Shown here: positions 1,556 through 53,757 of the stretch, in pieces | How positions within the stretch are numbered: the first letter of the stretch is position 1 | Layout of the letters: each line of letters begins with the position of its first letter | NCBI GenBank assembly: GCA_963281255.1 | Contig: OY725494.1 | Location: 1,563,934 to 1,627,933 of the forward strand | Length of the DNA stretch: 64,000 nt | Direction of reading: 5' to 3' | Source of the DNA: Aphrocallistes beatrix | Lineage: Eukaryota > Porifera > Hexactinellida > Sceptrulophora > Aphrocallistidae | Position numbers and translations under genes: made by a program | Notes under the pieces: model-generated | Databases searched by the model: none | Told to the model about the DNA's origin: nothing | What the model saw: the letters and a program-made list of their open reading frames with translations, nothing else

Positions 1556-2045
1556 ATGCAATACTCAAATACGATGATATGGGAAATTCTTTCCGATACA
1601 GATACTCATCTTCCAGATCCATGTGCTGATTTTCCTAAAATCGTCGTTATTGATGAGAGTTGGCAACGAAGTATGTGCAATTCCATAGGGCTAAACTTCT
1701 ACTCAGATAGCAAACAACCGTCTAATATTGCTGGGCTGCTTCTGAGAGATTATGAACCTTACGAAACTGATGACATCGTAGGTGATGGCAATTGTTTATT
1801 TCGATGCCTCTCGAAAATAATTATGGGTATGATATCTCGATCAATTGCGAGTGAGGGCACATCAAAAATGGATGGTATTTTAATCTAAGCAAACGACACC
1901 CAGTGAATATCTTCTTACTGAAAATCCTGTCCACCTCAAAGGAACTTGAGGAAGTGACGTCGAAATTATGGCCGCTTCGACTATTCTTCACCCTGATATC
2001 TACGTAGCGAATAACGACAATAAGTCAAGGGTCACTAATTTGTGA
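1556..2045 (+). pseudogene. OTU cysteine-protease module, copy 1 (broken)
   Basis: OTU domains are deubiquitinase-type cysteine proteases with a Cys-His pair. The ORF 1556-1888 contains V-G-D-G-N-C-L-F-R-C-L-S, the classic OTU catalytic Cys block, at about residues 78-89. A frameshift near 1888 moves the rest to frame 1893-2045, which reads G-T-stop-G-S-D-V-E-I-M-A-A-S and then L-H-P-D-I-Y-V, the usual OTU W-G-x-D-V-E-I / D-I-Y-V segment. The stop at 1947-1949 is TGA where the family has Trp, so a TGG to TGA change is likely. The His-containing end is missing or decayed. A W-Q-R-S-M-C motif lies 44 residues before the catalytic Cys and recurs in the other two OTU copies of this window. Probably the C-terminal domain of the transposase whose remnant precedes it. 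Confidence 0.8.
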
Positions 2046-2309
2046 AGTACGCTGAGATTTCTCAGAGCTAGTACTGTTTTGAAAAATCTTTCCGGGCGTA
2101 AAATTGTCCGGCCGGACAGATTTTTCGAAATATTATACTCCTTCTTAAAAACTGTTCCACCTAATAATAGAACTTGGGAAACCATTTCATTAGTCATCAA
2201 ATCATCATATAATTTCTCATCAAAGATGACAATTCTTAAACCGAATATTATTAACCCGATGAATTTTATAGATCTAATCAATGAATGACATTAAGTAGAA
2301 AAGAAAATT

Positions 2310-2410
2310 TTTGAATCTATCTAACTACTGAATCCATCCATTATTGATGAGATAGACGATCGTACTCGGATCTGATTAAGGGCTGATTCTCTTCGATTAT
2401 CTTCGGATAT
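2310..2410 (+). repeat. Inverted-repeat arm, outer part (pairs with about 15520-15620)
   Basis: The stretch with CTACTGAAT, TTATTGATGAGATAGACGAT and the ATCTTCGGATATCTTCGG end is matched in reverse complement at about 15520-15620. The match continues, after insertions, into 5110-5440. Confidence 0.7.
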
Positions 2411-2509
2411 CTTCGGACGAAAATTATACTCTCCAATGAACGAATAGACCAGGGGTCGTTAATATAAATACTAAAATGTCTATTAAATATAAATACTAAA
2501 ATGTCAATA

Positions 2510-3018
2510 CACTCGAACCTCTCTTATCCGGGCAGTGCCGGACCGGAAGGTGCCCGGATAACAGAATTTGCCCGGATATCGGAGGTCCGGATAAGAGAGG
2601 TGCCCGTAACTCAGAAATCAACTTGAATAGCAGTTTATAGTGTTAAAACTGTCAATTTGTATAATGGGTGAGCTTAAACAATATATAGTGCCCGGAACTT
2701 AGAGGTTATTAAAATTAGAGTTCCGGATAAGAGAGGTGATTGTAAAATAGATATTCTATAAAAGAAAAGAAACTATTCCATTGCGATTGATTAATACATT
2801 TTAAGCAGTATTTATCCCTGAATATATTAGATGTCGCAATTATCTTGCCAAATTCATTACAAAGTTCATTAAATAATATTACATGATAATGATTGCTGGA
2901 ATTGTGGTTAATAATTGACTTGAAAATAGGACAATGCATATTGACTAAATGTCGAAAGGGCTGCCCGGTTGAGAGAGGTGCCCGGATATCGGAGGTCCGG
3001 ATAAGAGAGGTTCGAGTG
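2510..3018. mobile_element. Tigger/pogo-type MITE, 509 bp
   Basis: Terminal inverted repeats start CACTCGAACCTCTCTTATCC and end with its complement, directly flanked by TA on both sides (2508-2509, 3019-3020). The GGATAAGAGAGG and TGCCCGGATA motifs recur inside. TA duplication and this terminus style fit the Tc1/mariner superfamily, pogo/Tigger branch. It has no coding capacity. Confidence 0.85.
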
Positions 3019-3065
3019 TACTTCTTTAAATAATCAGGTTAGAAGTTTAGGATTTCGAGTAAATA

Positions 3066-4407
3066 ATGGCATCTGCTTGTAAAAGACGCAAAGTGGATCA
3101 GGAAAATAGTATATTTAAGGAAAGTTGGACATCAATATTTCTTTATCATGTATGGAAAATGCCATTATGCCTATTATGTTCAAAGATAGAATCTCTGCGA
3201 AGGTGAGTGACTGAGCAACAAGGTACTTTCATAAGACATAGAACAGAGTCTGATAGTAGAGATCTTTTTGCTGACATCAGTTTTTCTTCGCGAACTCTTA
3301 CTCGCCGAATTGAAGGCTTAGCCTAAGATATTAAGCCATCATTACAAAAACGTGCACAGCAATTTGAGGTCTTTGCCATTGCACTAGATGAGAGTTTCGA
3401 GTTCACTGATACTGCCCAAGTTGCTGTGTTTGTAAGAGGAATCAATGCAAATTTTGATATTACTGAAGAATTCACAAATCTCGTCTCACTGAAGGTACTA
3501 CTACTGGTGTCAATATATTTGAAGCAATCAGACATGTCATGGATGTCTTAGGCTTAAGGCTAAATAATCTTTGTGGGGTTACGACAGATGGTGCTCCAGC
3601 TATGATCGGGAAAGCGAACGGGCTGTTTCTTTAATTGAAAAAGAGATGCGAAATAATGGGATCGAAAGACAAAGTTAAGAACAATACTGTATTATTCATC
3701 TTGAAGCCTTGTGTGCGAAATCCATTAAAATGCAAGAAGTGATGCGAGTAGTTATTAAATTACTAAACTTTGTTCGCACAAGGGCATTATATCATCGACA
3801 ATTTCAGCAACTGTTAGAAGAGATGGATAGTCAATATGGCGATTTGTTATTCTATATTGAAGTGCGCTGGTTAAGTAGAGGTGCTATGTTGCAGCGAGTA
3901 TATCAGGTGAGAGATGAATTGGCCATGTTTGTGAGAGAAAAGGATATTGCAGTTCCAGAACTCAATGATCAAAATGGATGGCAGATTTTGCATTTCTGGT
4001 GGATATTATTAACTACTTAAATATTCTAAATTTGAAACTGCAAGCAAAGAATCAACTGATCAATGTTCTTTATAATCATATTTATGCCTTGGAGATGAAG
4101 TTGCAATTATGGGAATTTCAAATGAAAAAGCGAAATTTTGTTCATTTTCCTATACTCCACGCACATCAACTAATTGATAGCTCATGTTATGCGGATTTAA
4201 TATCTGATCTCAAAGAGCAATTTGTTTGTCGATTTGCAGATATTAATAATCATCTACGTAAAGAAATTTAGTTTCTTCGCTAATATATTTGATGTTGAAA
4301 TTTATGATGCCCCAGAAGAGTTACAAATGGAACTGATCGAACTTCAAAGTTCGAGTGAGCTCAAATCTAAATTTCAGGATGTCAATATATTAGCATTTAC
4401 TATGTAA
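3066..4407 (+). pseudogene. hAT transposase pseudogene (GTF2IRD2/ZBED-like lineage)
   Basis: Reading from ATG 3066 with stops and frameshifts gives an almost complete hAT-like protein. A short Cys-containing N-terminus is followed by F-A-I-A-L-D-E-S (first catalytic Asp), T-D-T-A-Q-V-A-V-F-V-R-G, V-T-T-D-G-A-P-A-M-I-G (second catalytic Asp block, about 3580-3612), and the hAT helix E-V-R-W-L-S-R-G near 3864-3885. The C-terminal part runs to the stop at 4405-4407. Pieces open in one frame are 3709-4020, 3978-4271 and 4222-4407. At least two in-frame stops and three frameshifts break it, so it is long dead. This lineage also gave rise to domesticated vertebrate genes; nothing here suggests domestication. 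No termini were identified. Confidence 0.85.
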
Positions 4408-4446
4408 TATACGTACTAGTACGTAAACAATTAAAATATTTTCATG

Positions 4447-4924
4447 CACTGTCTGGCCAAAAGTATTGGAACACCCCGAATTTTCTCATAATAATAATAA
4501 TAAAATGGGCATAATTGTGAAGGAGAATCCATCCAAATTTTGCCATTTAATGCTTTTCTGATATTAAATTCGTGTTCTACACATTCGAATCATTTGAATT
4601 ATCTAGGATATAAGCTTTCTGAAGATAGTTTATTTACGAAAGCTAATATTTGTACATCTCGAGCCAATTGTCACAAATAAAAACCACTATACATGATGGT
4701 GATATGTGGCATACGGCCCCCATGGTGATAAAAAATTGCTTTCGGATGCAATAAGTCCTTAGAAATATAATATATGGGTAATTCGAATACGTAGAACACG
4801 GATCTTATATCAGAAATGCAGTAAATGGCATAGTTTGAATGAATTCTCATTGACCAAAATACCAATTTTATTACTATTATGATGGGAAAATTTGGGCTGT
4901 TCCAATACTTTTGGCCAGGTAGTG
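4447..4924. mobile_element. Tc1-type fold-back MITE, 478 bp
   Basis: Left end CACTGTCTGGCCAAAAGTAT, right end complementary to CACTACCTGGCCAAAAGTAT followed by TA (4925-4926). The left TA has decayed to TG. The two halves are complementary over roughly 200 bp each, so a transcript could fold into a long hairpin. It sits just behind the hAT pseudogene. Confidence 0.85.
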
Positions 4925-5109
4925 TATATACTTATTGGAAGCTCTTAAAAACTATATGATATGCATCCTTTATTAGACATTTTTATAACAAGTTGAAAAT
5001 AATACGTAAATATTGAAATAAAATATGACATTTTAGACAGACGATATCTCCTCCGGCCCGCGGGGTTGTAGAGGTTAGGCAATTTGTCCCGTAAACTGAA
5101 AAGTTTGCC

Positions 5110-5440
5110 GATCCCTGAATAACTCTGAGTATCCGGAAAGGAGAATTTCAGTTATTTGTTTCTGTGCTGGAGATGAATTGTTTTCGACATTTCTGCATTC
5201 TCGATCCTGAGATAGTTTTTTTTCATCATAAATAATATTGGGATGATTGTTTCAACTTCTGTTTCTTCCCTACATTTTCGACATTTCTGTGTACTTGATT
5301 GAATTTGATAGTCAAGTGTATTTTGACAATTTGTTACAAAGCTGTTGAAGTTTGTTAGATATAAAGATTTCTGTGTATTCGAGTAGCAAGACTAACACTT
5401 TATTTCAATTTGGTATGAATAGTAACCCAAATGTGAATTA
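5110..5440 (+). repeat. Inverted-repeat arm, inner part (pairs with 15105-15445)
   Basis: About 330 bp, including GAGTATCCGGAAAGGAGAAT and TACATTTTCGACATTTCTGT, are found in reverse complement at 15105-15445. With the 2310-2410 block this forms one arm broken by later insertions (Tigger MITE, hAT, Tc1 MITE). Confidence 0.8.
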
Positions 5441-5929
5441 ATATGATATTTTTTAAACATCTGTCCACCCGGACTTATTTACTTTCCTACAAATTGTCTG
5501 GATCGAAAAAACTCCGTCCTATTATCAGAACTCATGAGGCCATATTGGTATTTATCAAATATCATGAAAATATGTTTATGCACTTTGAGATTTTGTGTGC
5601 TTCCTATATTATTATATTGGATCTATATGATCCAATATAATAATATAGTAGCACAGTACTAAAATGAGTGCTGGTGTCCGGTCGGCCGGCCGTAAGTGGT
5701 GCACAGACCAGAGTATAAAAGATATCACCCTGAATTTTTTTGTGAAGCTACGGAAATAAATATATGTTGTAGAAAGTGTTGTGTAGATGACTTTACAAAA
5801 CTATGCTAATTAATTATGCTGACGTCATCATGATGACACAGCCAAAAATTTACATCCACAATTTTCATCCTACAAACTTTAATTGATGTAAAAATTAATC
5901 TAAGATATTTAAATTATTGATAAATAAAG
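5441..5929. other. No gene recognised
   Basis: AT-rich sequence with a small palindrome near 5616-5650 (TATATTATTATATTGGATC read toward its complement across TATATGATCC). No family resemblance seen. Confidence 0.35.
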
Positions 5930-6037
5930 TCCCTCACGGACGGGCTAGAAGTGTGCTTCCACATTCCTTGGATGAAGACATAGTAGATGTCATCTCAGGA
6001 ATTTGGAAGCACACTTATAGCCCGTCTGTGAGGGGTT
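5930..6037. repeat. Short fold-back hairpin, about 50-bp arms
   Basis: CCCTCACGGACGGGCTAGAA near the left end is answered by TTATAGCCCGTCTGTGAGGG at the right; the arms differ at only a few positions around a small loop near 5980-5990. It may be a tiny MITE or the tip of a larger one. It lies immediately before a Helitron-like fragment and the INT pseudogene. Confidence 0.75.
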
Positions 6038-6050
6038 TTTATTCTTACAA

Positions 6051-6094
6051 CAAGCGCGCTTCGATTGCTTGCGCTGCGCGGCTGGCGGACACTG
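6051..6094 (-). mobile_element. Helitron-like repeat, 3'-end fragment
   Basis: The GC-rich end of the dispersed repeat family described at 21142-21681 (CAAGCGCGCTTCGATTGCTT and the following GGCGGACACTG), cut off after 44 bp. Confidence 0.7.
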
Positions 6095-6097
6095 ATA

Positions 6098-7194
6098 AAC
6101 TATATTTCGAAATTGGAGATTCTCAGTCATTGGTAATTAGGGTATGTGTACTTACCAAAATACTATCAGAAATACACAATTCACACCAATGTGCTGGATA
6201 TACATACGCTTTAGCTAAGGGTCGATATTATTGGCCTAGTTGTATAAAGACAATACGTATGTGAGAAATTGCGAAGGCTGTCAAAGAAACGCCAGTTCAC
6301 TAAAGAGACCAAATGAACCACTCCAGCCTATGCCTGTGATAGCTCGAGCTTGGTATAGAGTAGGCATGGATCTGACTGGTCCTCTAATACAATCTGAAGG
6401 CTATCAATACATTTCAACGATGGTCGACCACTTTACAAAATGGGTAGAAACAAGACCACTAAAGAGCAAAGCCACTGATGAAGTTTCCAGGGGAGTGTAA
6501 ACTATGTATTGTTCCAAGGGTGCACCAGTCCATATAATAGGTGACAACGAGGGTGAATTTAGAAGCACATTAATGGATCATTTACAAAAATATACAATTG
6601 TCGGTTAATATTTACAGCTCCTTACAGTCCTCGAACAAACGGAATAACAGAATCCTACCACAAAGCTGTTAAAAATTACTTGATAAAATAGTTTGAACAA
6701 AAAGACAGGTGGCTCCAAGTCTAGAACACATAACATTTTCACTTAATGTACGAAAATTCAACAGGATATTCGGCCTTCGAACTAATGCATATTTTGAGAA
6801 ACCCACGATTACCCAATGAAGTGGCCGATATATTTGAGCAAGAAGTTTTAGACTGCGAAGAACATGAAACAGATTATAGTTGGGGTGATGATTCAAAACT
6901 AATGGAATTTAATTATAAAATTCATGAGATCAAGGAAATTGTATATGAAAATGCCTGCAAAAAACTCGTTTAATATAAGATTAAAATGAAAAAAACAATT
7001 TGACAAAAGGTTGTCCCAATTTCACACGAAATTTGAACACAACGATCAAGTACGTACTTGTAATTAATCATGTAAGAAGAAAGAGTCAACTAGAAAACCG
7101 TTGGATAGGTCCTTTTCTTGTTATTAAAATATACCAGAATGAAATCTTAGTGAAGAAGGTGGGAAGCCTCTGCGCTTTAAACATTCGCAAGTAA
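6098..7194 (+). pseudogene. INT-type transposase/integrase pseudogene
   Basis: Pieces in three frames read in order. An H2C2 zinc module comes first (I-H-N-S-H-Q-C-A-G then V-R-N-C-E-G-C-Q-R). The DDE core follows: G-M-D-L-T-G-P with catalytic Asp near 6367, I-I-G-D-N-E-G-E-F near 6534-6560 with the second Asp, and S-P-R-T-N-G-I-T-E-S near 6628-6656 with the Glu. A spacer with S-T-G-Y-S-A-F-E-L-M comes next, and finally N-R-W-I-G-P-F-L-V-I, the GPY/F module, near 7099-7128. All three catalytic acids are still visible, but several stops and frameshifts inactivate it. No reverse transcriptase, RNase H or LTR is seen nearby, so it could be a Ginger-like DNA transposon or a retrotransposon fragment. 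Confidence 0.8.
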
Positions 7195-7735: not shown

Positions 7736-8309
7736 TTATAAATTGTAAAAAGAAGAATATCGACAATGTATGAGGTCGATCACTGGCTCATAGTGATAAT
7801 CAGAGTGGTTAACTAAATAAAAAGCTGGATTGCTGTACTTGTGGTAGTTGGAACAATATCTATACCACGTTGAATGACATTCTTTTCTTCTGGGATGAGA
7901 TTGGAGATTAGATACGAATATGTCTACACTAAGCATTTTAGAAAAAGTTATTATCTCAACATCTGCACCCCAGATCTTATCCGAATGCAGTAAGTTTTTC
8001 AAATTTGGTCTCCAAGTATCGGGAAACAAAACTTGCGCCTTCTGTAACCATTAAGCGACAAATTTCCGCGGGAATTTTTGAATAACTATCTTGAGACCCT
8101 ATTAAGATGGCTGATAAGGCACGAAACAAACAATTACCATCTCCAACAATTGGTAGCTCTTCCAAAGGTATGACATTCTCTAATTCTTCCCCCACATAAG
8201 TGCTTGCTTGTATTAATGCGATTTCATGGGTAAAGCCAAGTTGAGCACACTTTGATCTTAACCAATTAGGTTGTGGTGGTGTATAGTGTGGCTCATCGCT
8301 TTGTGGATC
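7736..8309 (-). pseudogene. OTU cysteine-protease module, copy 2 (one frameshift)
   Basis: Read leftward, 8309-7977 gives P-N-W-L-R-S-K-C, then I-V-G-D-G-N-C-L-F-R-A-L-S with the catalytic Cys. After a frameshift in the overlap 7977-8029 the other frame gives I-W-G-A-D-V-E-I-I-T-F-S and V-D-I-F-V, then N-H-S-D-Y-H-Y-E-P-V with the catalytic His, ending at 7736. This is the most complete OTU domain in the window; both catalytic residues are present. The Trp of the W-x-x-S-x-C motif lies 44 residues before the Cys, exactly as in copy 1. The INT pseudogene at 9780-11080 lies upstream on the same strand, so this fits the C-terminal OTU domain of a Ginger1-like transposase separated by later insertions. 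Confidence 0.87.
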
Positions 8310-8772
8310 TGGAGATCATATTTGCATAGGAGAGTATTATCTTTTAGATATTTTCCAAGGATCTTTTTCTCCAGAAACTCGACTATCTACAAATAAGAGA
8401 TTAAAAAGTAAATATTTCTTATATTTAAATTGAAAGAAGTTATTCTTTTATGTGCAGCTCCTATCTATCTATTATGGGAGATGCCTTAAGGCATGGACGG
8501 CGTGTAACGTCCGTACACGCGATCCAAAGAATCTAGTGGATCTGATTTGTACAACCACGGACTGAACATAACTTACAAAATATAAGATGTACACCTAGGT
8601 CCTAGGGTAACAATTGTTCATATTTTCTTTGGGTTTAAGCATATTGTATGCTAGAAAAGAGATCCCAACGACCTGCAGCTAATATGAATATTCAAAAGTT
8701 TAATAGCATATCTCCCCGAGTCCTATTTAAACGGATTTGGTGGATTGCACAAGTCCACAGTATATTACAATA

Positions 8773-9357: not shown

Positions 9358-10355
9358 AAAAAACCAAACGGTTTCGACTGTATTTTAATTAAATATTCCA
9401 ACAATTCTTCCTCTCCCAAAACACCCCTTTCCCTCGCTCTTTACGCTGCAGCTCTGACTGTACATATCTACTGTATTATTAATTCTATCAGCATATTATG
9501 CCACCCCCCAAAAAAGAAACTATATGAAAATAATTTTAAATATGAAATCGATATTCAATGAGAACGAGTACATAGTTATCACTCCATGTCAGAACTCAGA
9601 TCTAAGAAATCTCCGAAATTTCTCGATATCAACGCACCTGAGCAACCATTTCTAAATTTTGGCCCGTATGTTCGATGAGTAGTAGAGTTAAATATAACTA
9701 GTATGATAATGTTCTAATAATTAATTACTTTTGTTTCACGGCAATAGTATTTTTTTGAAAAGTAGATGGGGTATCTACTAAGTTTGCCTTTGATTAGAGT
9801 AACTAGATGACTGTCTGTAATGCTGGAGATTTTAAACGGTCCTTTGTAGATTAGTTTCTCTTTCGTGCCAGGCATTTTCATTTCTTTATCCTTGGCATGT
9901 TTCTGGTGTACTCAAGGTCTGATGGCCAATCGGTTGTACATTCTGTTTCGACAGTTAATTCATTATGAATATCATCAACATCTTCATTAGGTTGTTCAGT
10001 CACATCTAGATTTAATCGGCGGGGGAGAGGCAAATGATCGAAATGACGACCGAACATGAGTTCGAAAGGGCTGTATTTAGTTGCTCGTTTCCTGTGTATG
10101 TTTGCTGACAAACAAGCAGGTTGAAGCTTGAATGGACACTCGAAATCTTTTTCATATATGAACTTGGCGAGTTTTCTAAATAATAACAATATCAAATTCT
10201 TTCGATCAAATAGCAGTTTTTCATTCATACCTTTTAATTATTTTATTATGGGCTTCGACCAAATCATTCGACTGTGGGTAGTAGGCAGTAGTGGAGTGAT
10301 CGTCAACATTCAGTCCATTATGGAATAGTTTGAATTCCTATGAATAAATAATAGA

Positions 10356-10573: not shown

Positions 10574-10806
10574 TATTCGCGTATTTCTAAAAAAGCAAAG
10601 ATTGTCACGGTTTCTTGATTTGGCGAGAAAAGAGGTTTTACTAACTGCTATCAATATATAGACTCACCTTACTCGTGAATTCTGTGCCCTGATCATGCTG
10701 TATAATAGCAGAGACACCAAAAATGAGATAAATCTCAGGCAGAACATCAATTACTGATTGTGTTGTCTTTGTAAATAAAGGTCGAGCAACGACAAACTTA
10801 CTTATA

Positions 10807-10994
10807 CAGTAGAACTCGGTTAGTACGTACTCGGGATAAGACGTACTTCGGCTTAGTACGTACTCATTTCTCTGAACCAAAATTCATTTATTATATAGAT
10901 TCCTATGTAATATCAACTCGGTTAGTACGTACTTACGGATAGTACGTACTTTTTTCCGCTTCCCGGAGGGGTACGTACTAACCGAGTTCTACTG
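10807..10994. mobile_element. Tigger/pogo-type MITE, 188 bp
   Basis: Left end CAGTAGAACTCGGTTAGTAC, right end its complement, TA on both sides (10805-10806, 10995-10996). Inside, the motif TTAGTACGTAC recurs. It splits the INT core exactly between its first and second catalytic Asp blocks. Confidence 0.88.
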
Positions 10995-11342
10995 TATAAC
11001 AAACAGCAACTAATATGTTTGTAGCCTTGGGAATTAATTGGTAGATCAGTCACTAGGTCTACCCCTATGTAATGCCAAAGGAGTCTGGGAGCTGGGATTA
11101 ATCTACAAATAAATTCATAATACAGTGGATACCAGTTAAAAAATACCGGATATGAGGTACCGAACTTGCGAATTATTGACCAATTTAGAAGAGTTTAGGG
11201 GGCTCAGACATAATTTTTTCTTGTGTCTATGGACCATCTTTGAATCCAGAGATGTTCGAGCCTACCCATCCCCTGGATATAAGAACCATATCCAACGAAG
11301 TCGATTAATTAAGAATATGTTTTAGTAAAATACTTGGTTATA

Positions 11343-22235: not shown

Positions 22236-23717
22236 TCATAGTAGATTGCGCGTTTCCCCACTGATTTCACTGCTAACCATATCAGAGTTGCTCTGTTCAG
22301 CATTTGATCTATCTCTGTCAACAAATAAACTTCCTATCAGATAGAAAAAACCTGATAAACAAGAAATGAAGCAAGTTAGGTAGAGAGCAGTTTGAAGGGA
22401 ATTTGAACGTGCGATTTCAGTGGAATCGGTACCACGTAAGTAGTCTGAAATAGCACCAACAAGAGTCGGGCTTGCTGCATCACCTAAAAGGTGGGAAAAG
22501 AGAATTTGAAAAGCTTCGGCAGTAGAACGCCTCTGAGGAACAATAACGTAGAGCAAAATATTTGCGTTTGGGGCCCAGTTGAAACTGATAACGAAAACAC
22601 AGAAAAATACCAGAGTGAATCCAGCCCATATTGAATATCGAGTTATAGTCAAAGTCGTGTATAAAAGAGGAGCACTTAATATCATTCCTATCGCGCAGAC
22701 ATACATATCAGATTTTCCAGAATAGCGAGACAAAAATTTTGATAACTCAGAACCGAATAAAGTACCAACTAAGCCGCCGATACCAGAAGCAACACCAAAA
22801 AGTATGCTACATGTATTAGATGAAATTAAAGAGTCATAGTATGCATCAGAAATAAGCGTTGTGAAGCGAGGTGCCCATTGAGCAAGAGCGCCAGTGCTAA
22901 AAGCAACACCTGTAAATCCTAAAGTTGAAAATATAAAACTACGATTCGTTATTACAGAATATATATCAAAAAGAATTGTTCTAAAACTAGATTTACTTCT
23001 AAGTGATACAGATGAATGAAAAGCAACTTCCGAACGTCCACGTTGGGGTTCCCGAGCCAAAAATACAACCAATATCACTGCTAAAAACCCGAAAGGAGGG
23101 GTAACTCTTAATGCCCATCTCCATTGTTCAGTGTGAATATTCAGGACCTTAACAGCAAAGGTTTGAGCAAGAGCAGCAATTATATACCCAAGAGCGGTTC
23201 CGAAAGGAATGACAAGGTAGAATAATGAGAGCATCCTTATTCTTAATCGATGAGAATACATGTCAGCAATAAGTGTGGGAGCTATAGTTGCATAAGAAGC
23301 CTCACCTATACCAACAAATGTACGCATAAGAAGAAGAAACCAGTAAGTAGGCGAAAAAGAAGATGCCAGGGTGGCTCCAGACCAGATTAATAGACCCAGT
23401 CCAATAAGCCAAGTTCGACGGTATCTATCTCCTAATAACCCGAAAGGAATTGAAAATATCATAAATGATATTATAAAAGAAGTGGTTAAAAATCCTGTCT
23501 GGGAATCTGTAAGTTCATGTCCAAAACCATTAGTAGTTGCATTTTCTAAGTTAGTAACTATAGCGGCAATCGTCCAACGATCTGTATAATTAAGGGCATT
23601 AATAAAAACTAAAATGGTAAAGGTGATACAATCACGATGAAAACTAGTAGTAGCTTTATCATTTTTGCTCTTTGGTCTGGTAAGTTCTGAATTATCATTA
23701 ATCATAGTCGCCATCAC
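22236..23717 (-). CDS. Spinster-type major facilitator transporter, intact single exon
   Basis: A 493-residue protein of the usual length for Spinster (SPNS) proteins, which are multi-pass transporters of lysosomal or plasma membranes moving lysolipids or sphingosine phosphate in characterised animals. Visible family marks: N-Y-T-D-R-W at the end of the first membrane segment (residues 43-48), the MFS loop G-D-R-Y-R-R (96-101), and G-I-G-E-A-S-Y-A-T-I-A-P (136-147), followed by L-I-A-D-M-Y. About twelve hydrophobic segments alternate with short polar loops; no signal peptide is needed. The Met at 23717 was chosen because it opens the frame and leaves a normal hydrophilic N-terminus of about 28 residues; M4... 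a second Met lies three codons in. The frame is clean with no intron, in contrast to every neighbour, so I take it as a functional host gene. The substrate cannot be read from sequence. Confidence 0.92.
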   Translation of the reverse strand: MMATMINDNSELTRPKSKNDKATTSFHRDCITFTILVFINALNYTDRWTIAAIVTNLENATTNGFGHELTDSQTGFLTTSFIISFMIFSIPFGLLGDRYRRTWLIGLGLLIWSGATLASSFSPTYWFLLLMRTFVGIGEASYATIAPTLIADMYSHRLRIRMLSLFYLVIPFGTALGYIIAALAQTFAVKVLNIHTEQWRWALRVTPPFGFLAVILVVFLAREPQRGRSEVAFHSSVSLRSKSSFRTILFDIYSVITNRSFIFSTLGFTGVAFSTGALAQWAPRFTTLISDAYYDSLISSNTCSILFGVASGIGGLVGTLFGSELSKFLSRYSGKSDMYVCAIGMILSAPLLYTTLTITRYSIWAGFTLVFFCVFVISFNWAPNANILLYVIVPQRRSTAEAFQILFSHLLGDAASPTLVGAISDYLRGTDSTEIARSNSLQTALYLTCFISCLSGFFYLIGSLFVDRDRSNAEQSNSDMVSSEISGETRNLL

Positions 23718-24754
23718 AAGGGATTAGGGCTAAATAAACAAAATTCACAGAAAGAATATCAAAAAATTAGTTAACGAAAAGAAAGAGAAATAAGGATACA
23801 TATTACGGCCATGGGTGTAATAATTTCTCGAAATCACCATTTTTAACGGTATCCAATGTACGAAAATTCTGAAAATTTTTTAAAGTTTTTTGGCTTTATA
23901 ACGTTCTTATAAAGGTTATCTCCATGTATCTTTAATTTTTGAATCATTTTACAAGTGTTTTCGTACTTTTTTCTTCGAAGGAAATAACAAGTTTTTCATA
24001 TATTTTGGATTGAATTGAAATCCTATATTTTATTAATTATTAAGTAACAGTACAAATAAAATATATAACTAAGTGAAAACTACAAAATATCATTACTTTA
24101 TCATCTTATAACATAAATATCCTATTTTAACTGTTGCCACTCCTAAAAGTAGAGAGGATATACTTAGCAATATCCTCCCCCTTAGATTGGGCCCAGGTCT
24201 TCTAAAATATAGTTGTGGTGAGACATCCACAATAATTCTTCTGCCTCTTGGGGTGTTCATTTAGTATGCTAATCGAAATTGTGAATAAAATATATAATTA
24301 TCAATCTATTTATTATCGAAGTAGAAAATATAATACCTCATATGATAATAAATTATCTAAATTTTATTTATTATGTAAAGACATCAGAATGTCTAATGCC
24401 GGCATACAATTCATATTTCAACAATTATCCAAATAAGGGTAAGATAGCTAACACGATTTACTCAATCACTTGGAGAATAAAATCCATTCTTCAGATTGCC
24501 TAAAAACGATTGTGATTGTAGTCAAGCAAATAACGTGATAAATCATCAACTGTAATTGAATCCTTACAAAGATACAACACTATTGTCATTCCGTGGAAAC
24601 TTTCAAACAATAGAAGTTTGATTCTATAATTAGTAGCCGAATACCACTGTTTGAATCTAAACTACAGATAGCATCTAAAGAATTTTGAAAATTGATATTA
24701 TTCGGCTGAAATCGCGTTTGAAGCGGAAATTTAGGGGGAGAAAGGGGTTATCGA
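23718..24754. other. No gene recognised; upstream region of the transporter
   Basis: AT-rich. The first few hundred bases should hold the transporter promoter, but I see no convincing TATA box or initiator. The frame at 24248-24436 is low-complexity. Confidence 0.4.
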
Positions 24755-27661: not shown

Positions 27662-28876
27662 CTAAGGGCAACCCATGGTTTCCAGGATTGGAGATACAAA
27701 AATTAATTAAGCAATAATTATAAAGACAAAACTACATTAAATGTTCAAAATATTCCCCCTTATTCTGAATACAGAGTTCAAACCGCTCCAACCACTTATG
27801 AAAAGTTTTTTTGTACCATTCTTTGGGGATGGCTTTGAGATCATACTGGAAAATGGCGCTTCCAAGCTGGTGGTTGGTTTCAAAATCTCTTCCAGACAGA
27901 TGCAATTCGTGGTTGTTAAACAGCCAGAAGTCACAAGGAGAGAGATCTAGGCTGTAAGGTGGATGCTGAAGCTTCACAACCCCCAAAGAATCCAACGTAT
28001 CCTTCACAAACCGAGTTTTATGGGGCCTAGCATTATCATGGAGAATTCGCAGGCCTTTACAGATGGTACGTGGGCGCCTCTCTTTATAGTGCTGTTCTAC
28101 TGCAGCAAGGCAGGTAGTGGCATAATACTCCCTGTAACTCTTTGGCCTTTAGGTAAGCATATTTGAGCCACTGATCCATGTGCGTCAAAGAAAATTGTGT
28201 ACAGTACCTTACGTCCAAACCTATCGGGCCTGGCTTTTTTGGAGGGGGGTTTTCTTGATCCGTCGTCATTTTTTCCGACCCAGGTACACGTAGCCGATTT
28301 TCTTTCAGGTTCATTATAACTTATCCACGTTTCATCCCCAGTAAAGATTTCGTTAAGACGCCTAGGGTCTGCATTGCTATATTCCTTTAAGAGTTCTTTG
28401 GACATTTTTAGACGTGCCAATCGCTGAGATTCGGTGAGTTTATGCGGAATCCAACGTGCACAAAGCTTTCGCATTTGAAGATCGATGGTCAGAATCCTCT
28501 CAACACTTCCCGTTGATATCCCAGATTCATAAGCAATATCTTTGATGCTACAGTGTGGATCCTCATCAACAATAGCCTTAATGCGAGCGATATTCTCGTC
28601 TGTCCGAACCTTAAATTCGGGGCCTGGTCGAAGGTCATCTTCAACAGATAGTCTTCCTCCTCGGAAGCGAGCTGCCCACTCACATACCCTCGAATAAGAA
28701 AGATGACTATCTGGACATACAATGACCAGCTCTTCAAATATCGCTTTAGGGGCAAACCCGAGTTTTGTGCGAAACTTGATGTAGGTCCTCTGCTCAATAT
28801 TGGAATCTGATTCCTTTGAAGCCATAAAATTACCCAGTATCAAAAAGTTCTCCTGGAACCCATGGGTTGAACTTAG
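27662..28876 (-). mobile_element. mariner transposon, DD34D, 1215 bp
   Basis: Inverted termini CTAAGGGCAACCCATGG on the left and complementary to CTAAGTTCAACCCATGG on the right, with TA at 27660-27661 and 28877-28878. It carries one transposase gene. Confidence 0.88.
27732..28825 (-). pseudogene. mariner transposase with a single frameshift
   Basis: From M-A-S-K-E-S (28825) the frame gives the helix-turn-helix region, A-A-R-F-R-G-G-R-L-S-V-E-D-D, then F-T-G-D-E-T-W (first catalytic Asp), W-V-G-K and P-K-G-Q-R-V-T-G. About one base is missing near 28127, after which the other frame gives Y-Y-A-T-T-C-L, I-L-H-D-N-A-R-P-H (second Asp) and Y-S-L-D-L-S-P-C-D-F-W-L-F (third Asp). The last two Asp are separated by 34 residues, which defines mariner DD34D. 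All catalytic residues are intact and no stop is seen besides the frameshift, so the copy is fairly young. A longer in-frame extension to 28885 lies beyond the right terminus and is not part of the gene. Confidence 0.88.
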
Positions 28877-28893
28877 TATAGACACACATAAAC

Positions 28894-28922
28894 AAACATT
28901 AATCGAGTTTTAATAGTAAGGA
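28894..28922 (-). mobile_element. Helitron-like 5' terminus, solo fragment
   Basis: Complement of TCCTTACTATTAAAACTCGA with the adjacent ATTAATGTTTG, without the body. Confidence 0.6.
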
Positions 28923-29851: not shown

Positions 29852-31186
29852 CAGTCTGTAACATAATTATTGAGAATCATTAAAATACTGTAAAACACAC
29901 GTTCATGCGAATATCTTCTAGTCGTTTGAATATATTGTTAACAACATGCCAATAACTAATAATTAATCGGAAACTGCCTGATTCTATCACTAATTGGCAC
30001 CTGCGTGGCATGGAATCACAGTATGGCTTGAGAAATTAAGGGTTTATGTTCGACCATACGATCTCGAGTTTTTCTCTCAGTTCGGAAATTGTCCTGGGAG
30101 CTAGTTTTATGAGTTCTTGTGTAACCCATCTGAAAACATTCTCAATCGGGTTGAGGTCAGGGCTCTGCGAAGGCCATGGTAGATGGTTTGGGATATTTTG
30201 GGACAAAAATTGCTTGACAACCTTCGAAGTGTGTTTTGGGTCATTATCCATGACTAGACGCCATTCATTTTGGTGAAAGACCTCAGCCTGGGTCAACAGA
30301 TGCCCTTCTAGGATGGTAATAAACATTTGGCTGTTCATATTATCAGTAAAGATGGAGAGAGGAAACGTCCCCATTGAGCTAAATCCTGCCCAAACATTAA
30401 TTTTGGGGGTATGTTTAGTCGTTGGAGCTGTTCTTTTTGTGTCGGATTTTGTCCACATTTTAATCCTTCCTCGAGACAACCAAATCGACATTTCATCGGT
30501 ATAAACAGTCTTATTCCATGCTTTTTTTGGGTACTTATGCTTCTTTGCCCATTGAACTCTCGCAAGCCGATTTTTCTCGCTCACTATTGGTCTGTTGGTC
30601 TGATATTTTTAGTATAGTCGAGGTCTTTCATCGCTCGCCAGACAGTTTCATGAGAGGGTTTCCCGGGGACAAGATTAGCCAAAGTACGCAAAGAGAGATA
30701 AGGCTTACGTCTGATCTGTTGGGAAATGCTTTTTCGGATAGATAATCTCAGTTTAAACGGTCTCCCAGCACCCTTACGATGTTCTAAACCAATGTTGTCT
30801 TGTTTTCTAGATTTCACCCTATAAACCGTGGCAACGCTTACGCCCAACTTCAGTGATATCTCTTTTACAGATAAACCGGAGTTGTTCAATAGTGTTTCTA
30901 TTTGGGTTCTCTTTAGTTTTTGACTCATGTAGGCAGTATTACTAGCTAAATCATTGATAGGAAAAAGATAAAAGTTAAATATGCAAAAAATTAAGAAAAT
31001 GGTGACGTCATCATTTAATTTGAGCTTGTATTTTTAGCAAAAAATGGGAATTTCTTTCAATATGGTCAAAATACTTGAGAAAAATGAAGATAAAGATAAT
31101 TTTGATAGAGAGTAAGAAGAGGGATATTTATTAAAATTGGTTCAATAAGAATTTATAAAAATTCTCAATAATTAAGTTACAGACTG
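29852..31186 (-). mobile_element. Tc1-like transposon, DD34E, copy 1
   Basis: A 1335-bp element with 26-bp inverted termini CAGTCTGTAACATAATTATT (right end with one change), TA on both sides. Nearly identical to the copy at 56634-57976. Confidence 0.92.
30036..30928 (-). pseudogene. Tc1-like transposase, copy 1 (frameshift plus nonsense)
   Basis: The N-terminus MSQKLKRTQIETLL is followed by two helix-turn-helix domains (S-V-K-E-I-S and G-A-G-R-P-F) and the nuclear-signal-like linker; the catalytic part shows V-Y-T-D-E-M-S-I-W, V-M-D-N-D-P-K-H-T and S-P-D-L-N-P-I-E-N with 34 residues between the last two acids (DD34E). Compared with copy 2, one T is missing from a T run near 30605, shifting the frame after Y-T-K, and a GAA to TAA change ends the protein at 30036 instead of about 31 residues later. 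Both lesions are private to this copy. Confidence 0.9.
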
Positions 31187-35588: not shown

Positions 35589-36899
35589 ATGGTTGACATC
35601 AGTTTAGCTTCAAATTCAAGAATATGCGCAGTTTGCGAACGCGAGTCAGTATTCGGTACTGCATTTCGTATGCATTATAACGTATATTCCTGTGAAGCTT
35701 GTAAATGCTTTTTTAGAAGATCTATTCAGCTAAAAAGAAAGTATATATGTAAATATTCTAATGAATGCCTAGTTTCTAATAATTTGACCAGTCAATTTTG
35801 CAAAGCCTGTCGATTGAAGAAATGCTTTAATGTTGGGATGATGAAACATTCTGTAAGACCCAAGAAATTGCAAAAATTTTTGATCCATTCAGTGTCTACC
35901 ATTGAAAGCACTCCATGCATTGGTGAATCTATATCTAATCCCTTGAACAGTTTGAATAATGACTCAATTTTGAAATTACCAGATAAGCTTTGTATTTCTA
36001 TACGCAATGACAATATTGTTTCTCAAGCTAAGTTCCATGAAAACACTGAAAGAATTGATTTGAGCTATAGTGATAATAATCTACCCTCTCAATTTGAAGA
36101 TAGTGTTACTAGTCTTCCAAAACCAGCTGTTAATAAGAACATTTCAACTTCTTATTTTAATTCAAATCTAATTGATAATAGCGAACCAAATTTGTTTATT
36201 CATTCCAATTTTTCAATCAGATCTTCTCTCTCACCTAGAATGTTTATAGTAGATGCATCAAATAATGACAAATTAATTCCTCAGGAAAGATATGATGTTG
36301 CTTCTATTGAAGAAGTCTTGGATAGCTTAAAAATACGAATTTTGGATCTTTTCAAATGGGCCAAAAGATCTTCTGAATTCGGAAAGCTATCTCCCAATGA
36401 TCAAAAGTCCCTTCTTCGCTACACTGTTGTTGAGTTGGTAATGCTTGGGTTCGCTCGGGCATCTATCCATTATGATGATGTTTTATATTTTAATCACATA
36501 CACAAAATAATTAGGCCGAACCATCCGAATAGTGCTGTTGCATGCGTAACAAAATTAACTATAGACAAATTAGTAAAACCTCTAAGATTTCTTAATTTGA
36601 ACAAATCTGAATATAGGATAATGAAGGAAATAATACTGTATAATCCATCTTCGACTACTTTGGGTGATTTGTCGAAAGTTCGTGAGATGAGGGGTAGTCG
36701 CTTTCAACATTTGTACCTTGAAGCCTTCCAAGACATTTGTAGATTTGGTGATATATTATCGTTGTTAACACCATTATTTGAAGTAGCAACAGAAATAACA
36801 GAACAGCTCCGCTTGGAACAATATGTACAAGAAAGTGAGGCCACAATGGATGCTTTTCTTCTAATTAGTTTATTACAGGATGCAGAAGTGGATGATTAA
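35589..36899 (+). CDS. Nuclear receptor, intact single exon, unusual zinc-finger spacing
   Basis: A 436-residue ligand-type transcription factor. The DNA-binding domain occupies residues 13-84: finger I uses C13, C16, C35, C38 and finger II C54, C60, C71, C74; the P-box is C-E-A-C-K and is followed by F-F-R-R-S and C-R-L-K-K-C-F-N-V-G-M. The gap between C16 and C35 is 18 residues (13 in the standard receptor) and finger II has 10 instead of 9 between C60 and C71. A long Ser/Asn-rich hinge (about 90-235) leads to the ligand-binding domain with the signature D-L-F-K-W-A-K-R-S, F-G-K-L-S-P-N-D-Q-K-S-L-L-R, and a C-terminal D-A-F-L-L-I-S-L-L helix that could serve as AF-2. The LBD looks RXR/HNF4-like (NR2) or like the expanded supplementary receptors of some invertebrates; I cannot place it more closely. 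No intron, no stop: a functional host gene by appearance. Confidence 0.92.
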   Translation: MVDISLASNSRICAVCERESVFGTAFRMHYNVYSCEACKCFFRRSIQLKRKYICKYSNECLVSNNLTSQFCKACRLKKCFNVGMMKHSVRPKKLQKFLIHSVSTIESTPCIGESISNPLNSLNNDSILKLPDKLCISIRNDNIVSQAKFHENTERIDLSYSDNNLPSQFEDSVTSLPKPAVNKNISTSYFNSNLIDNSEPNLFIHSNFSIRSSLSPRMFIVDASNNDKLIPQERYDVASIEEVLDSLKIRILDLFKWAKRSSEFGKLSPNDQKSLLRYTVVELVMLGFARASIHYDDVLYFNHIHKIIRPNHPNSAVACVTKLTIDKLVKPLRFLNLNKSEYRIMKEIILYNPSSTTLGDLSKVREMRGSRFQHLYLEAFQDICRFGDILSLLTPLFEVATEITEQLRLEQYVQESEATMDAFLLISLLQDAEVDD

Positions 36900-49071: not shown

Positions 49072-49173
49072 TGTTCATATGCTAATATCAATTTTTCGAC
49101 TTTTACTATTTATTATGTTACTATTAACAAGTATTCATTAAACAATTGTTTAACTTAATTTATCTATCTATAT

Positions 49174-49654: not shown

Positions 49655-49838
49655 CTGCTTGGATGGTGCAGTGGTTAGGGTGTTTGAACACCAAGAATTA
49701 GGTCACGGGTTCTAACCTCGCCCTATTTATTTGCATCATGCTCTCAATTATATTGTTTCGTCCATGAAGTCTGAGCCTACACTCTTGCAGAACTTTAGTG
49801 AGCTGAAAGCATTAAGGATCTCGTTTAGGTAGAGTTTA
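49655..49838 (+). mobile_element. tRNA-derived SINE-like element
   Basis: TGGTGCAGTGGTTAGGGTG (49663-49681) matches a tRNA A box and GGGTTCTAACC (49708-49718) a B box, at tRNA spacing, so an RNA polymerase III internal promoter is likely. The full cloverleaf does not form well, so a tRNA gene is unlikely. The 3' boundary coincides with the left terminus of the next element. Confidence 0.6.
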
Positions 49839-49839
49839 T

Positions 49840-50353
49840 AACGAGTGTTATCTTAGCGGCCGATTCAGCGGCGGATTCGCATGTCACGTTCAAACATGAA
49901 TAACTCAGCAAGCATATGTCATAGATGAAATCTAACTACACCATTGTGTAGAAGAGCATTGGTGCATTCATATTTGATATATGTAATTTTAATATCCCGC
50001 ATGGTGAGTAAGCAGTGACACTTTTAGTCCATGTCACGTATCTGGTGGAATAACTCAGTAAATATGAATGGTAGCAATTAGCCATTTTAACCACGTGAAG
50101 ATGAGCTTTGGTGCACCCCTGAATTCCATTTTCGAGACTAAATTCATAAAACTGTCTGAAAGGCAGGGAGCCAAAATTTGTATTACTAGTTTGGTAATAG
50201 GCATGACTTCATACTGGTATCCAACTAGGATGTGATCAAGACAAACTTAGCTATTTATCCATAGTTATTTACGCTCTTGATGAATGTCCATGAATTTGTT
50301 TACACAATCGATGCATAATTCCTGGTCAATTCATAATTAATTAAATATTCCTC
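49840..50353 (+). repeat. Left terminal inverted repeat of the Mutator-like element
   Basis: 514 bp; includes two TGTCACGT-type motifs near the outer end (CATGTCACGTTCAAACATGA, CCATGTCACGTATCTGGTGG) each followed by a GAATAACTCAG phrase, suggesting a tandem sub-structure of possible transposase sites. Confidence 0.9.
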
Positions 50354-50397
50354 CTTTTTTTTTTAATTTGATCCCAGCCTAATTAGTATATATAAAT

Positions 50398-52778
50398 ATG
50401 TTGGGTTTTTTCCGAACTAACATTATTCAAACTTCGACGTTTTCACACATTTTTGTTTTTCGCATATCGCATTTTGCAATTCGCATTTCGCATTTTGCAT
50501 TCCTCATTTCCATATCATTCGCTTTTTTCTTTTCCATTTTCAGAAAGATGAATAATACGGAGAGTATTATTTTATGTCAGGCCTTACTCCAATTGGGTTA
50601 CGTTTCTTTTGAATCTTTAAATTCTGCATTAAATAAAGAAAACAGGAGAGCAAGCAATTCTCTTTGGGGAATATTGTGCATATCGATGTACGGAGTCAAC
50701 AGAGAGAGGAAACGCACGTTACTCTATACTAATTGGATGAAGAATCGCGGTCAGATAAAGGACTTAGTAGCTGCTGAGATGTCATCTAAGGGTGATTGAA
50801 CAAGTCCGACGATAAGGTGGTATATCAAGGGAACGCATATCTTGATAGGAGTGGTAAGATATTTAAGAGTGGAGATAATGATAGTTGTCTTGAGTCAACC
50901 CCCATGTTAGATATTCCACAATCTAATCAAGAACTGGAACTTGATTGCTTAAACGTTGAAATAACTAATACTAAAAGTGATCGAAATCTCAACGATGCGA
51001 TAAATCTCCCTAGTATTTCTAATGGGGAATTTAATTTTACTTTGGGTGAATGGGAAAATATAGCGATGTTACAGGGAAACCGAGCAATCTTTTCGAGGGA
51101 TTAGACCAATGCCTTTAATGCTAAGATCGAAGATAAATTTGTTTGTGTTATTTGCTTTAAATACAAAAAATAGGTAAAATTAGTAGGAAAAAGCAATACT
51201 TGTTTTTTCACTGCTCATGCAGAATGCAAGTTTTCTAATTTTTCTTCGTTTTAAATTTACAATACAGAATGAACCTTTTACCTCTCGGCCTGTTAACATT
51301 ACTGTCAATTACGAAGTAATGGGTACTTTATCTCCTGAGCATTCAAATGTGGACATTGCCTATTCAAGAAAATTGTAGAATAGTTTATGATTGTAGGTAG
51401 ACTCTAATTTAACTGATAAATCAGTTGGTAACTACTTTTATGAACAGTTTCCCCACCCCAATTGTGAGAGCTCTGCGCTATCTTTTGGTAACTTTAACAA
51501 TGTAAGAAGTGCCTGCGACTTGAGGAACGCTAAGTTTGATTTGTCTTGTCTTCAAAGGTTTTCTAACGATAATTGGAGCGAACTTTCTGGTTTACAGGAA
51601 TATTATAGAAATATTACAGTTAATAATATACTTCGAGGGTACATCCAGTCTTTAGGCCATGATCCGTTCATAGTTCATATGTATTCTCAAGATCAAATTC
51701 AAGTTTTGAATTATTTTAAGGGTAAGAAAGTAATTGTGCATTTAGATTCTACCGGCTCTATTATTAGAAAAATAAACTAGAGCCAAAAGCGTGTTTTTTA
51801 TTATGCATTGACGATTCATCACCATGAGGTCACAACCAGCCCTTTGACATTAGCTGAAATGATTAGTTCAGCTTATTCTTCTGCAGAAATATCTTAATTC
51901 TGACATAAATGGTCTCTTGACTCAAAAAAGGTCTTAAGTAGAGAAATTAATATTGGCCATGTAGAGCTTGATTATAGCTGGGCCCTTATTCATAGTGTTT
52001 GTAACGCTTTTATTAAATCTGATATTTTCACATACTGGGATAAATGTTGGATATTATTATTTAGTCAGGAGGATGTTTGTATGCAATTCGCGTTATTCTT
52101 CACTTGTGTTCCGCTCACCTAATGAATGGAATAGCTTTTAATGTGAATAAAAAGTTTAAGTTATCTAAACCAGTTCGAAAATTGTTTCTTCATAGTATAG
52201 GATATATGATAAATTATACTCAAATGATAAATTTAGATAATGTTTGTATGGATTTGTGTTTTGTCTTTTTAAACCGAAATTTCAGTAAGAATGTTGTGAA
52301 GCATATACAAAATTTAGAATCATTTATTAGTTATAGTAAAAGTTGCGATGATGAATATGTTGACCCGAGGATAGTAATAATTTGACATCTTTTGTGGAAA
52401 ATGAGAGTAAAACCTATCGCGATAAATCCCCATTTGGAAAGCATTTTAACACAATTTATGAGAAGTGTAAATCCGAACTTTTAGTTTGAATGAGAAACCT
52501 TGTTTGGAAGCAACCCTTGTTATAACCCTGAAATTATTGAATATCTACTTACCCATTATATGGTTATAATTCCACTATGGTCAGGCATTATTTTGGGATT
52601 TGGTTCCAGTGAATCCGATGTTTACATGAGTCATTATAGTAATGCAATTGTAGAAAATTGGATGCGTATAGTAAAGATAGACATATTAAATTCTAGTACT
52701 GGTTTAAGACCAGGGGATCTGATAAGGATTATGCATCTTAACATAATTAGCAGCTTTTTGCTTTGCTTTTCATCCTAG
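50398..52778 (+). pseudogene. Mutator-like DDE transposase pseudogene
   Basis: The frame opens 45 bp inside the left terminus. The first 50 residues are hydrophobic and low in complexity; a better start may be M-N-N-T-E-S near 50548. Then follow a possible zinc finger (C-V-I-C then C-F-F-T-A-H-A-E-C, about 51146-51230) and V-I-V-H-L-D-S-T-G-S (first acid, near 51744). Next come F-Y-Y-A-L-T, H-V-E-L-D-Y-S-W-A-L-I-H (second acid, near 51970), V-I-L-H-L-C-S-A-H-L-M-N (C-x-x-H, 52092-52127) and A-I-V-E-N-W-M-R-I-V-K (final Glu, near 52650). D, D, C-x-x-H, E in this order is the Mutator layout. At least six stops or frameshifts break it. The exact group is my inference. Confidence 0.68.
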
Positions 52779-53076
52779 AGCTAAGAAGGTATTTAAAAGT
52801 TATAAGCGTAAAAGAGATCCTTCTGAGGAAGAGAATTGTCAGGAGGAATGGCAGAGAAGAAGTAGGGAGAAATGTAATAGCTATTTAGTATCTAAATCTA
52901 TCAGTTTTCTCAAGTTAGAGCATTAGTAAATAATTAAAATAAAAGAAAATTAGATGCAGGTAATGACATAAATGAAACTGAACAAAAAAAAGTAAAATTA
53001 GTGTAGATAAAAATGGAAAAACAAAGCTAAAATTTGTACCTAGGTTGCGTCAGAGATTATCTGATTTGAAAAAAAC

Positions 53077-53757
53077 GTGACTTTTCTGTCTCACGAATCA
53101 GTGATAATAGACAGTGACGCTGCCGATATTATCACTGATTCAGATCTAGTAGAACAAGATATTTTACGATTAAAGTTGCCTCCCTTCCGCTCGCCAAATA
53201 AAGACTGGCAAAACAGTATTTGTGGTAAATGGAATATTTTGGTTTCTAATTATATTAATTATGAAATCGATCCTCATTTGGATCAACAAGATCTTAGAGA
53301 TTGTAAACCTTGTGTTGTTGAAAAAATAGTGGGTATGGAAATTGTTACTTTCGAGCTCTTTCGTTTATCCTTACAGTAGTCAGCAAAATCATTTTAATTT
53401 ACGTACAATTATAGTTAATAACATGTTAGGTAGATAAAAAAATAGATGTGACGCCTTTTTAAGGACTAAATATGTTTACCAGCAAAGTAACTACAGAAGT
53501 GTAAAGGATTGGGTAAATAAGACAGGTATGGATAAGAATGGGAAGTGGGCAACGGATTTGGAAGTATTTGCAACAGCGTTACTTTTTGAAACCGATATAT
53601 GGGTATATTTAGGACCTGGAGGTACACGCTGGATTGGATTTTCTGGTAAAAGGAAAAAATTAAATGAATTTCTCGATTGTCCCTCTATATTTAGATTATA
53701 TCTACAAAATACTGGCTGTCATTATGAACCTGTTTTGTCTGTTGATAATATGTAATC
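53077..53757 (+). pseudogene. OTU cysteine-protease module, copy 3
   Basis: D-W-Q-N-S-I-C opens the module (the shared W-x-x-S-x-C motif). At 53331-53370 the codons read G, AT-, G, N, C, Y, F, R, A, L, S: one base is lost from the Asp codon of G-D-G-N-C, which shifts the frame exactly at the catalytic site. Downstream, W-A-T-D-L-E-V-F-A-T-A, T-D-I-W-V-Y and C-H-Y-E-P-V with the catalytic His complete the domain by 53755. It lies 300 bp behind the Mutator-like transposase on the same strand and inside the same termini, so it is probably the C-terminal domain or a second gene of that element. Confidence 0.83.

Follow-up and report, generated by a model that had tools for sequence, protein, structure and literature searches.

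We analysed a 64-kb stretch of the genome of the sponge Aphrocallistes beatrix (hereafter the window; C8:1563934-1627933 in a searched genome of 100.5 Mb and 28 contigs), which carries three copies of a protease module consisting of an OTU (ovarian tumour) domain and an upstream extension marked by the motif W-x4-C. Sequence comparison indicates that extension and OTU domain are one homologous unit borne by two types of transposase, in most families of both. The first type is Ginger1-like and has a Gypsy-type integrase; the second makes 9-bp target duplications. With moderate confidence we read the three window copies as the decayed C-termini of such cut-and-paste transposases, in which a deubiquitinase module would aid the transposase or repair and would have been passed once between the types.

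The six frames of the window contain exactly three instances of the motif W-[QL]-[RN]-S-x-C, each followed by G-x-G-N-C, and a motif scan recovered three OTU modules with W-x-x-S-x-C ahead of the catalytic Cys where the first-pass annotation had placed them. Copy 1, on the plus strand, carries WQRSMC (1661-1678) and GDGNC (1781-1795) in the same frame, and copy 2, on the minus strand, carries WLRSKC (8264-8247) and GDGNC (8144-8130), likewise in one frame; in both the Trp lies 44 residues before the Cys, as annotated. The spacing of 46 residues given for copy 3 is exact in its intact relative L025, while in copy 3 itself WQNSIC and GYGNC stand in different frames and are thus separated by a frameshift. 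All three OTU copies (3/3) are broken by frameshifts. Integrase remnants precede copies 1 and 2 in matching orientation, as had been noted without mention of the minus strand of copy 2, and both copies derive from two families of Ginger1-like (Gypsy-integrase) transposons. The GPY/F remnant of copy 1 was also matched in the genome-wide search (window 486-761, E 2.3e-16). Copy 2 is colinear with L039 over five blocks of 87-95 % DNA identity (window 11185-10345, 9525-9092 and 8772-7989), and its extension and OTU start are 89 % identical to a 220-amino acid (aa) open reading frame (ORF) of L031. Another integrase remnant at 5899-6497 on the plus strand (H2C2 E 3.5e-5, DDE E 1.8e-10) belongs to a separate element; it was ruled out as the integrase of copy 2, which has its own minus-strand integrase upstream, colinear with L039. 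Copy 3 follows a transposase within long termini, as annotated, and aligns by blastn with L025 in main blocks of 91.9 and 93.9 % DNA identity; a 9-bp duplication was not visible in the flanks examined. The three copies are not mutual closest relatives, an outcome that the first-pass annotation had named as counting against its proposal: copies 1 and 2 belong to two integrase-linked families, whereas copy 3 shares 92-94 % DNA identity with a second-type element. Pfam matches to copies 2 and 3 stay under the Pfam cut-off.

To characterise the module we utilized an alignment (A1) of ten OTU modules from intact relatives, on which the A1 profile is based. It contains 24 invariant columns, including DGNC and a His; C82 and H203, taken as catalytic by eye, are invariant in all ten modules, which makes an active protease likely. 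The two types are approximately 25-29 % identical, as measured relative to the first Ginger-type row. Within the 52 residues ahead of the catalytic motif, W-x4-C stands in 14 of 17 Ginger-type rows, in 17 of 18 from the second type and in two of the three from the window, compared with 0/2 host OTU rows, 0/1 Helitron rows and 3.8 % of shuffled stretches. Many of these rows are near-copies of each other; counted by family, the figures are 9/9 for the Ginger type and 6/7 for the second type; rows from L001, L009 and L029-L032 were left out as representing the same genomic places, and the Helitron L038 was not matched by the pattern. The rows that miss the motif have Cys for Trp (L006), Gly for Trp (L023) or a degenerate sequence (L034, L035), or, in the copy 3 piece, are cut by the frameshift. 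Trp-to-Cys spacing is 44 in the Ginger type (45 in L037) and 46 in the second type.

Profiles restricted to the extension (about 50 residues before the OTU domain, OTU letters excluded) were run against 8100 ORFs. The Ginger-type extension profile finds five of the seven second-type families (L005; L014, L015 and L021; L012 and L013; L017, L016, L018 and L019; L020) at E 3.5e-6 to 1e-3, before any unrelated ORF. In the reverse direction, matches of the second-type profile to L045, L046 and L037 have E 9.9e-5 to 7.3e-4; most other Ginger-type rows, copy 1 included, follow at E 0.0087-0.14, before the first unrelated ORF. The copy 3 extension gives E 1.7e-21 with the second-type profile and E 0.12 with the Ginger-type profile, and the L025 family and L023 are joined to the rest via the whole-module alignment. 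A chance origin of the motif was rejected on the shuffle rate and these cross-matches. PF02338 scores above its cut-off in the scanned uninterrupted OTU proteins (eight second-type; L037, L036, L044 and L040). The best solved relatives of the OTU core are human OTUD1 and OTUD3 (4bop E 7e-8, 4bou E 2e-7), which differ in that their OTU alignments start after the extension: every alignment among the PDB OTU matches listed begins at profile position 59 or later, with the Trp at about position 43.

The association with transposases extends across the genome, where all counts are lower bounds (candidates numbered 263, 528, 421, 370, 222 and 623, of which 75 or 150 were scored). The OTU list comprises 149 PF02338 places from 150 scored of 263 candidates, the three window copies being absent from it. 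Among the 149, a GPY/F exon lies within 5 kb upstream on the same strand at 56 and a second-type core at 42, with both partners at none; the counts for both parts are zero downstream on that strand and zero upstream on the opposite one, the opposite strand downstream being outside the count. Counted in reverse, a listed OTU lies within 3 kb downstream of 48/84 core fragments and within 5 kb downstream of 57/150 GPY matches. These counts combine the OTU, second-type core and GPY lists; the DDE list, which did not enter them, would by eye add at least two OTU/integrase pairs (C20:1958134, C17:2656373). Three Pfam matches to Mutator-like elements (MULEs) lie within 5 kb of the partnerless OTU places C19:943683 and C4:5142400. 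A Helitron in L036 (C2:4502000-4510000), at 513-6422 on the minus strand, has an uninterrupted 1970-aa frame with Helitron_like_N, a PIF1 helicase and a C-terminal OTU; Helitrons (also L038) are a third OTU-bearing transposon type in this genome.

In the intact Ginger1-like elements, L029 and its kin, an integrase DDE exon is followed by a GPY/F exon, three small exons and the OTU exon. PF00665 (rve) matches the L029 exon at E 1.4e-6 and L037 at E 6e-7, both just below Pfam's own cut-off, and the GPY/F exon, identified by eye and by mutual similarity, displays K/M-Y-x-GP or a close form in nine aligned rows. Integrase and OTU occur together in one intact frame, one of the conditions that the first-pass annotation had set for its proposal, since Pfam places rve and OTU within one 525-aa ORF of L037; they are also joined across predicted exons. 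The four predicted introns are all GT-AG and phase-0 in five copies of two families, exons from inside GPY/F onward are multiples of three in these copies, and the joined GPY/F-to-OTU stretch is stop-free in four of the five (L029 has one stop). In the two families the OTU exon starts at a phase-0 intron 37-38 residues ahead of the Trp. The one element measured, that of L029, has terminal inverted repeats (TIRs) of 134 bp that are 88.8 % identical, and by eye a 4-bp GGAC duplication and the end TGTTT could be read. With TIRs and a 4-bp duplication present, and no reverse transcriptase-like ORF noticed by eye on the L029 coding strand (no profile search was made), a long terminal repeat retrotransposon or provirus was set aside as unlikely.

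Ginger1 elements with a C-terminal OTU have been described in Hydra, Aplysia and pea aphid, and that report gives as hallmarks TIRs of 40-270 bp, CCGG or CCGT/ACGG duplications and TGTNR ends (Bao et al. 2010, PMC2836005). A C-terminal OTU or Ulp1 domain also characterises Ginger1. The sponge element shares the Gypsy-integrase core, GPY/F, introns, C-terminal OTU, TIRs of ~134 bp and a 4-bp duplication (one element), whereas its GGAC and TGTTT differ from the duplications and ends of Ginger1. We use the name Ginger1-like because the 4-bp length fits Ginger1, although the letters do not.

The second type has ORFs of 1041-1272 aa with the OTU module at the C-terminus. L025 contains an uninterrupted 1102-aa frame, and intact frames were found in at least three places with 1102 aa and at least five with 1041 aa. 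The 1041-aa frame has identical OTU scores at C4:961412, C6:4042450, C7:763718, C7:2463656 and C15:4005091; two of these places, L014 and L015, are 100 % identical across 5.5 kb, which suggests recent activity. Perfect 9-bp duplications flank 10 of the 13 copies readable at both ends (L012, L013, L014, L016, L019, L020, L022, L024, L025 and L028) and were not seen in the other three (L015, L026, L027). L015 (409-8420), with a coding part identical to L014 yet no 9-bp duplication, is perhaps a recombination product between copies. The inverted termini are long; those of the families read consist largely of tandem repeats of ~185-187 bp or ~321 bp. The length of these arrays (L012, L014, L016, L017, L025) differs between copies and between the two ends, and a 215-aa open frame lies within the L025-family inverted termini, at both ends of L024 and L025 and one end of L026. 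The transposase cores have D232, D307, C353-x2-H356 and E540 invariant in six aligned rows; judged by eye, D232, D307 and E540, with C-x2-H after the second Asp, would be the DDE triad.

Mutator elements make target duplications of 8-11 bp, usually 9. The first-pass annotation had called the transposase of copy 3 Mutator-like, which on the duplication and termini is a fair guess that neither the Pfam MULE model nor profile comparison supports. PF10551 (MULE) was unmatched in eight second-type proteins at E 0.1 and in five of these at E 10 (filters drop most matches above 0.1), and no transposase domain appeared in a Pfam scan of the second-type ORFs at the same thresholds (eight and five respectively). 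Yet the model finds the positive control L047 at E 3.9e-22 and 121 other places in the genome at E 0.001, of which none lies within 3 kb of the 84 second-type core matches. Profile comparison with two true MULEs gave E 0.15 and 0.12 against 0.056 for a mariner control, and a PDB search with the second transposase returned two chains, both designed proteins. The blindness of PF10551 to these proteins and a MULE comparison no better than the mariner control could thus indicate that the second type belongs to a DDE superfamily of its own, in which duplications of 9 bp arise by coincidence; we regard this as possible but doubtful. The 9-bp duplications, long tandem-repeat termini and D-D-CxxH-E order fit Mutator or Rehavkus/Phantom kin, and the weak alignment with L048 does pair both presumed Asp regions. 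Among known elements, MuDR-6_HM of Hydra, classed as Mutator and listed with "Ovarian Tumour Gene" (Dupeyron et al. 2019, PMC6446971, Table 1), would also argue against a separate superfamily; it resembles the second type in combining a Mutator-classed transposase with OTU and differs from it in that the second type is undetected by the Pfam MULE model. Rehavkus and Phantom share 9-bp (8-10 bp) duplications, with minisatellites near the end of some, but Rehavkus has a PHD finger and OTU is unlisted for both in the table rows consulted (PMC6446971).

An unrooted OTU tree of 18 rows (seven second-type, eleven Ginger-type; no outgroups) contains one branch that parts the two types, with support of 94/92 and in 93 % of bootstrap trees. 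Within it, L041 and L043 group with copy 1 (99/97), and copy 2 pairs with L044 (100/99) before L040 is added (94/93). The integrase tree (nine rows) has three clades as in the OTU tree, supported at 99-100, and in the second-type core tree, as in the OTU tree, L025 and L023 stand apart from the other rows. The finer order differs once: copy 1 pairs with L041 in the integrase tree (82/85) and L041 with L043 in the OTU tree (91/82), copy 1 being short in both. The incongruence between OTU and transposase trees that the first-pass annotation had looked for is therefore not clear within this genome, since major clades are shared and the types are parted by a single 94/92 split. Its proposal that the module had moved between superfamilies holds insofar as a homologous unit sits on two types; recent or repeated swapping is not supported, as the trees agree on major clades. 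A single branch between the types together with matching major clades can be explained by one ancient exchange, or by two acquisitions that drew on a shared source, and comparison of the trees supports a module exchange that would be one old event, in either direction. Two independent captures from one host or Helitron OTU lineage, with no transfer between transposons, would agree with the low identity of the two groups, with the rootless tree and with the OTU-bearing Helitron, which groups weakly with the second type (82/90) in a tree that includes host and Helitron OTUs on very long outgroup branches. We consider such captures unlikely: W-x4-C is common to both types and was not seen in the two host and one Helitron OTUs, so the source lineage would need it too. 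A pattern search of viral contigs gave 26 matches, among them no relative.

The module probably represents an accessory enzyme that passed long ago between unrelated transposons and helps their mobility. In this scenario the OTU would act as a deubiquitinase physically carried by the transposase, its target being either the ubiquitinated transposase or ubiquitinated repair or chromatin proteins of the host at the cut site, with a longer-lived transposase or repair tilted in favour of the element as the outcome. Established OTU chemistry makes deubiquitination close to the transposase the most likely activity, on a substrate that we infer. The module may have crossed between the Ginger1-like and second types in a single ancient transfer, perhaps as an exon, given that in the genes examined the Ginger1-like OTU lies in one exon starting at a phase-0 intron. 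The ratio of nonsynonymous to synonymous substitution rates (dN/dS) is 0.095 and 0.096 in two pairs of the Ginger-type OTU exon (dS 1.8), which is purifying selection; among four second-type pairs dS is saturated in two and dN/dS is 0.34 and 0.38 in the others. Related roles have been suggested in earlier work, in which transposon OTU and related domains may aid repair after transposition (PMC2836005) and related Helitron enzymes may keep proteins required for transposition from being degraded (PMC9741609); in the 2022 paper transposon OTU domains are described as untested for activity (PMC9741609).

Two other functions can be envisaged for the module. Its position at the C-terminus, in one chain with the transposase in long ORFs, would suit a processing protease that releases the transposase, either from the protease part or from a longer precursor, with ubiquitin not its main substrate, and viral deubiquitinases often also process polyproteins (PMC9741609); this is improbable, as the elements seen have a single chain, without a second product to release. 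Alternatively the module might counter host defence by stripping ubiquitin in trans from germ-line factors whose role is to silence or eliminate the products of transposons. A related idea has been published for transposon-borne tegument-like deubiquitinases (PMC9741609) and three transposon types in this genome bear OTU, but the fusion of OTU with transposase points to a site of action close to the transposase or to DNA, and we give the idea little credence.

Several observations weigh against a deubiquitinase module that serves the transposase and was passed once between types. Its activity is a prediction and all three window copies are broken; the Ginger1-like introns are likewise predicted from sequence. 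Neither transposase part lies near 51 of the 149 listed OTU places; these include the Helitron places L036 and L038, the host-like genes L010 and L011 and possibly missed transposases. On the L025 family, that of copy 3, the Ginger-type extension profile gives E 0.12-9.1, and it leaves L023 unmatched among the 8100 ORFs, while copy 2, L044 and L040 score E 0.22-1.6 with the second-type profile, behind an unrelated ORF. As the tree lacks a root, it could also reflect two acquisitions made independently from a single source not seen here, and selection on the second-type module is poorly measured owing to saturated dS.

OTU domains on Ginger1, on one Hydra MuDR and on Helitrons are already known. 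The last have been published for Helitrons and Helentrons (PMC2836005, PMC6431247 and PMC9741609); these resemble L036 in having OTU on a mobility protein and differ from the two types described here in that L036 lacks W-x4-C and the protein is a rolling-circle Rep/helicase rather than a DDE transposase. In the passages of the literature that were covered, neither the extension common to both types nor an OTU comparison across the two carriers is mentioned. The W-x4-C deubiquitinases could constitute a lineage confined to transposons, a portable accessory exon that would have moved between DDE superfamilies and would do each the same service, a more durable transposase or guided repair, with the second carrier maybe outside Mutator, although we advance this only tentatively. 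If the module is one exchanged unit, this would point to control of ubiquitin as a general bottleneck for animal DNA transposition. The genome supplies material for testing the activity of the module, with uninterrupted frames of both types, a defined module boundary and a W-x4-C motif open to mutation independently of the catalytic Cys.

Table 1 Remnants of the three OTU-bearing transposons in and directly before the window (window positions unless stated)
Copy	Feature	Position	Strand	Evidence or remarks
1	Integrase DDE core	L009 7364-7695, directly before window	same strand as copy 1	
1	Integrase GPY/F exon remnant	573..794	+	phmmer with L029 GPY exon, E 4.6e-10
1	Extension and OTU start	1553..1885	+	motif scan; A1 profile E 2.6e-18; no match in Pfam scan at E 0.01
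1	Later OTU piece, other frame	1950..2042	+	A1 profile E 7.4e-7
2	Integrase DDE remnants, two pieces	10644..11194	-	phmmer E 4e-12, 5e-8
2	Integrase GPY/F remnant	9717..9911	-	phmmer E 1.1e-9
2	Extension and OTU start	7980..8315	-	motif scan; A1 profile E 5.5e-21
2	OTU remainder, other frame	7739..8050	-	A1 profile E 9e-10
3	Whole element, 5.85 kb	49841..55690	+	ends ACGAGTG...CACTCGT
3	Left long terminus	49841..50353	+	matches L025 inverted terminus
3	Transposase core piece with first presumed catalytic Asp (HLDSTGS)	51397..51780	+	ORF compared with A2, by eye
3	Extension (WQNSIC 53206-53223)	53065..53376	+	motif scan; A1 profile E 4.8e-18
3	OTU catalytic stretch (GYGNC 53331-53345), other frame	53322..53411	+	A1 profile E 5.9e-4
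3	OTU remainder	53438..53752	+	PF02338 E 3e-4 (under Pfam cut-off); A1 profile E 1.2e-41
3	Right long terminus	55179..55690	-	matches L025 inverted terminus

The window also contains other mobile and host-like sequences, and we read its gene content as animal-like. Two nearly identical, broken Tc1-like transposases (30036-31033 and 56739-57758, both on the minus strand) and a mariner-like transposase in two overlapping frames (27732-28909, minus strand) were recognised by eye, as were two long host-like ORFs, a nuclear receptor of 436 aa (35589-36899, plus strand) and a transporter of 495 aa (22236-23723, minus strand). An inverted pair of nearly identical open frames, at 60379-60747 on the plus strand and 61259-61669 on the minus strand, face each other about 0.5 kb apart.

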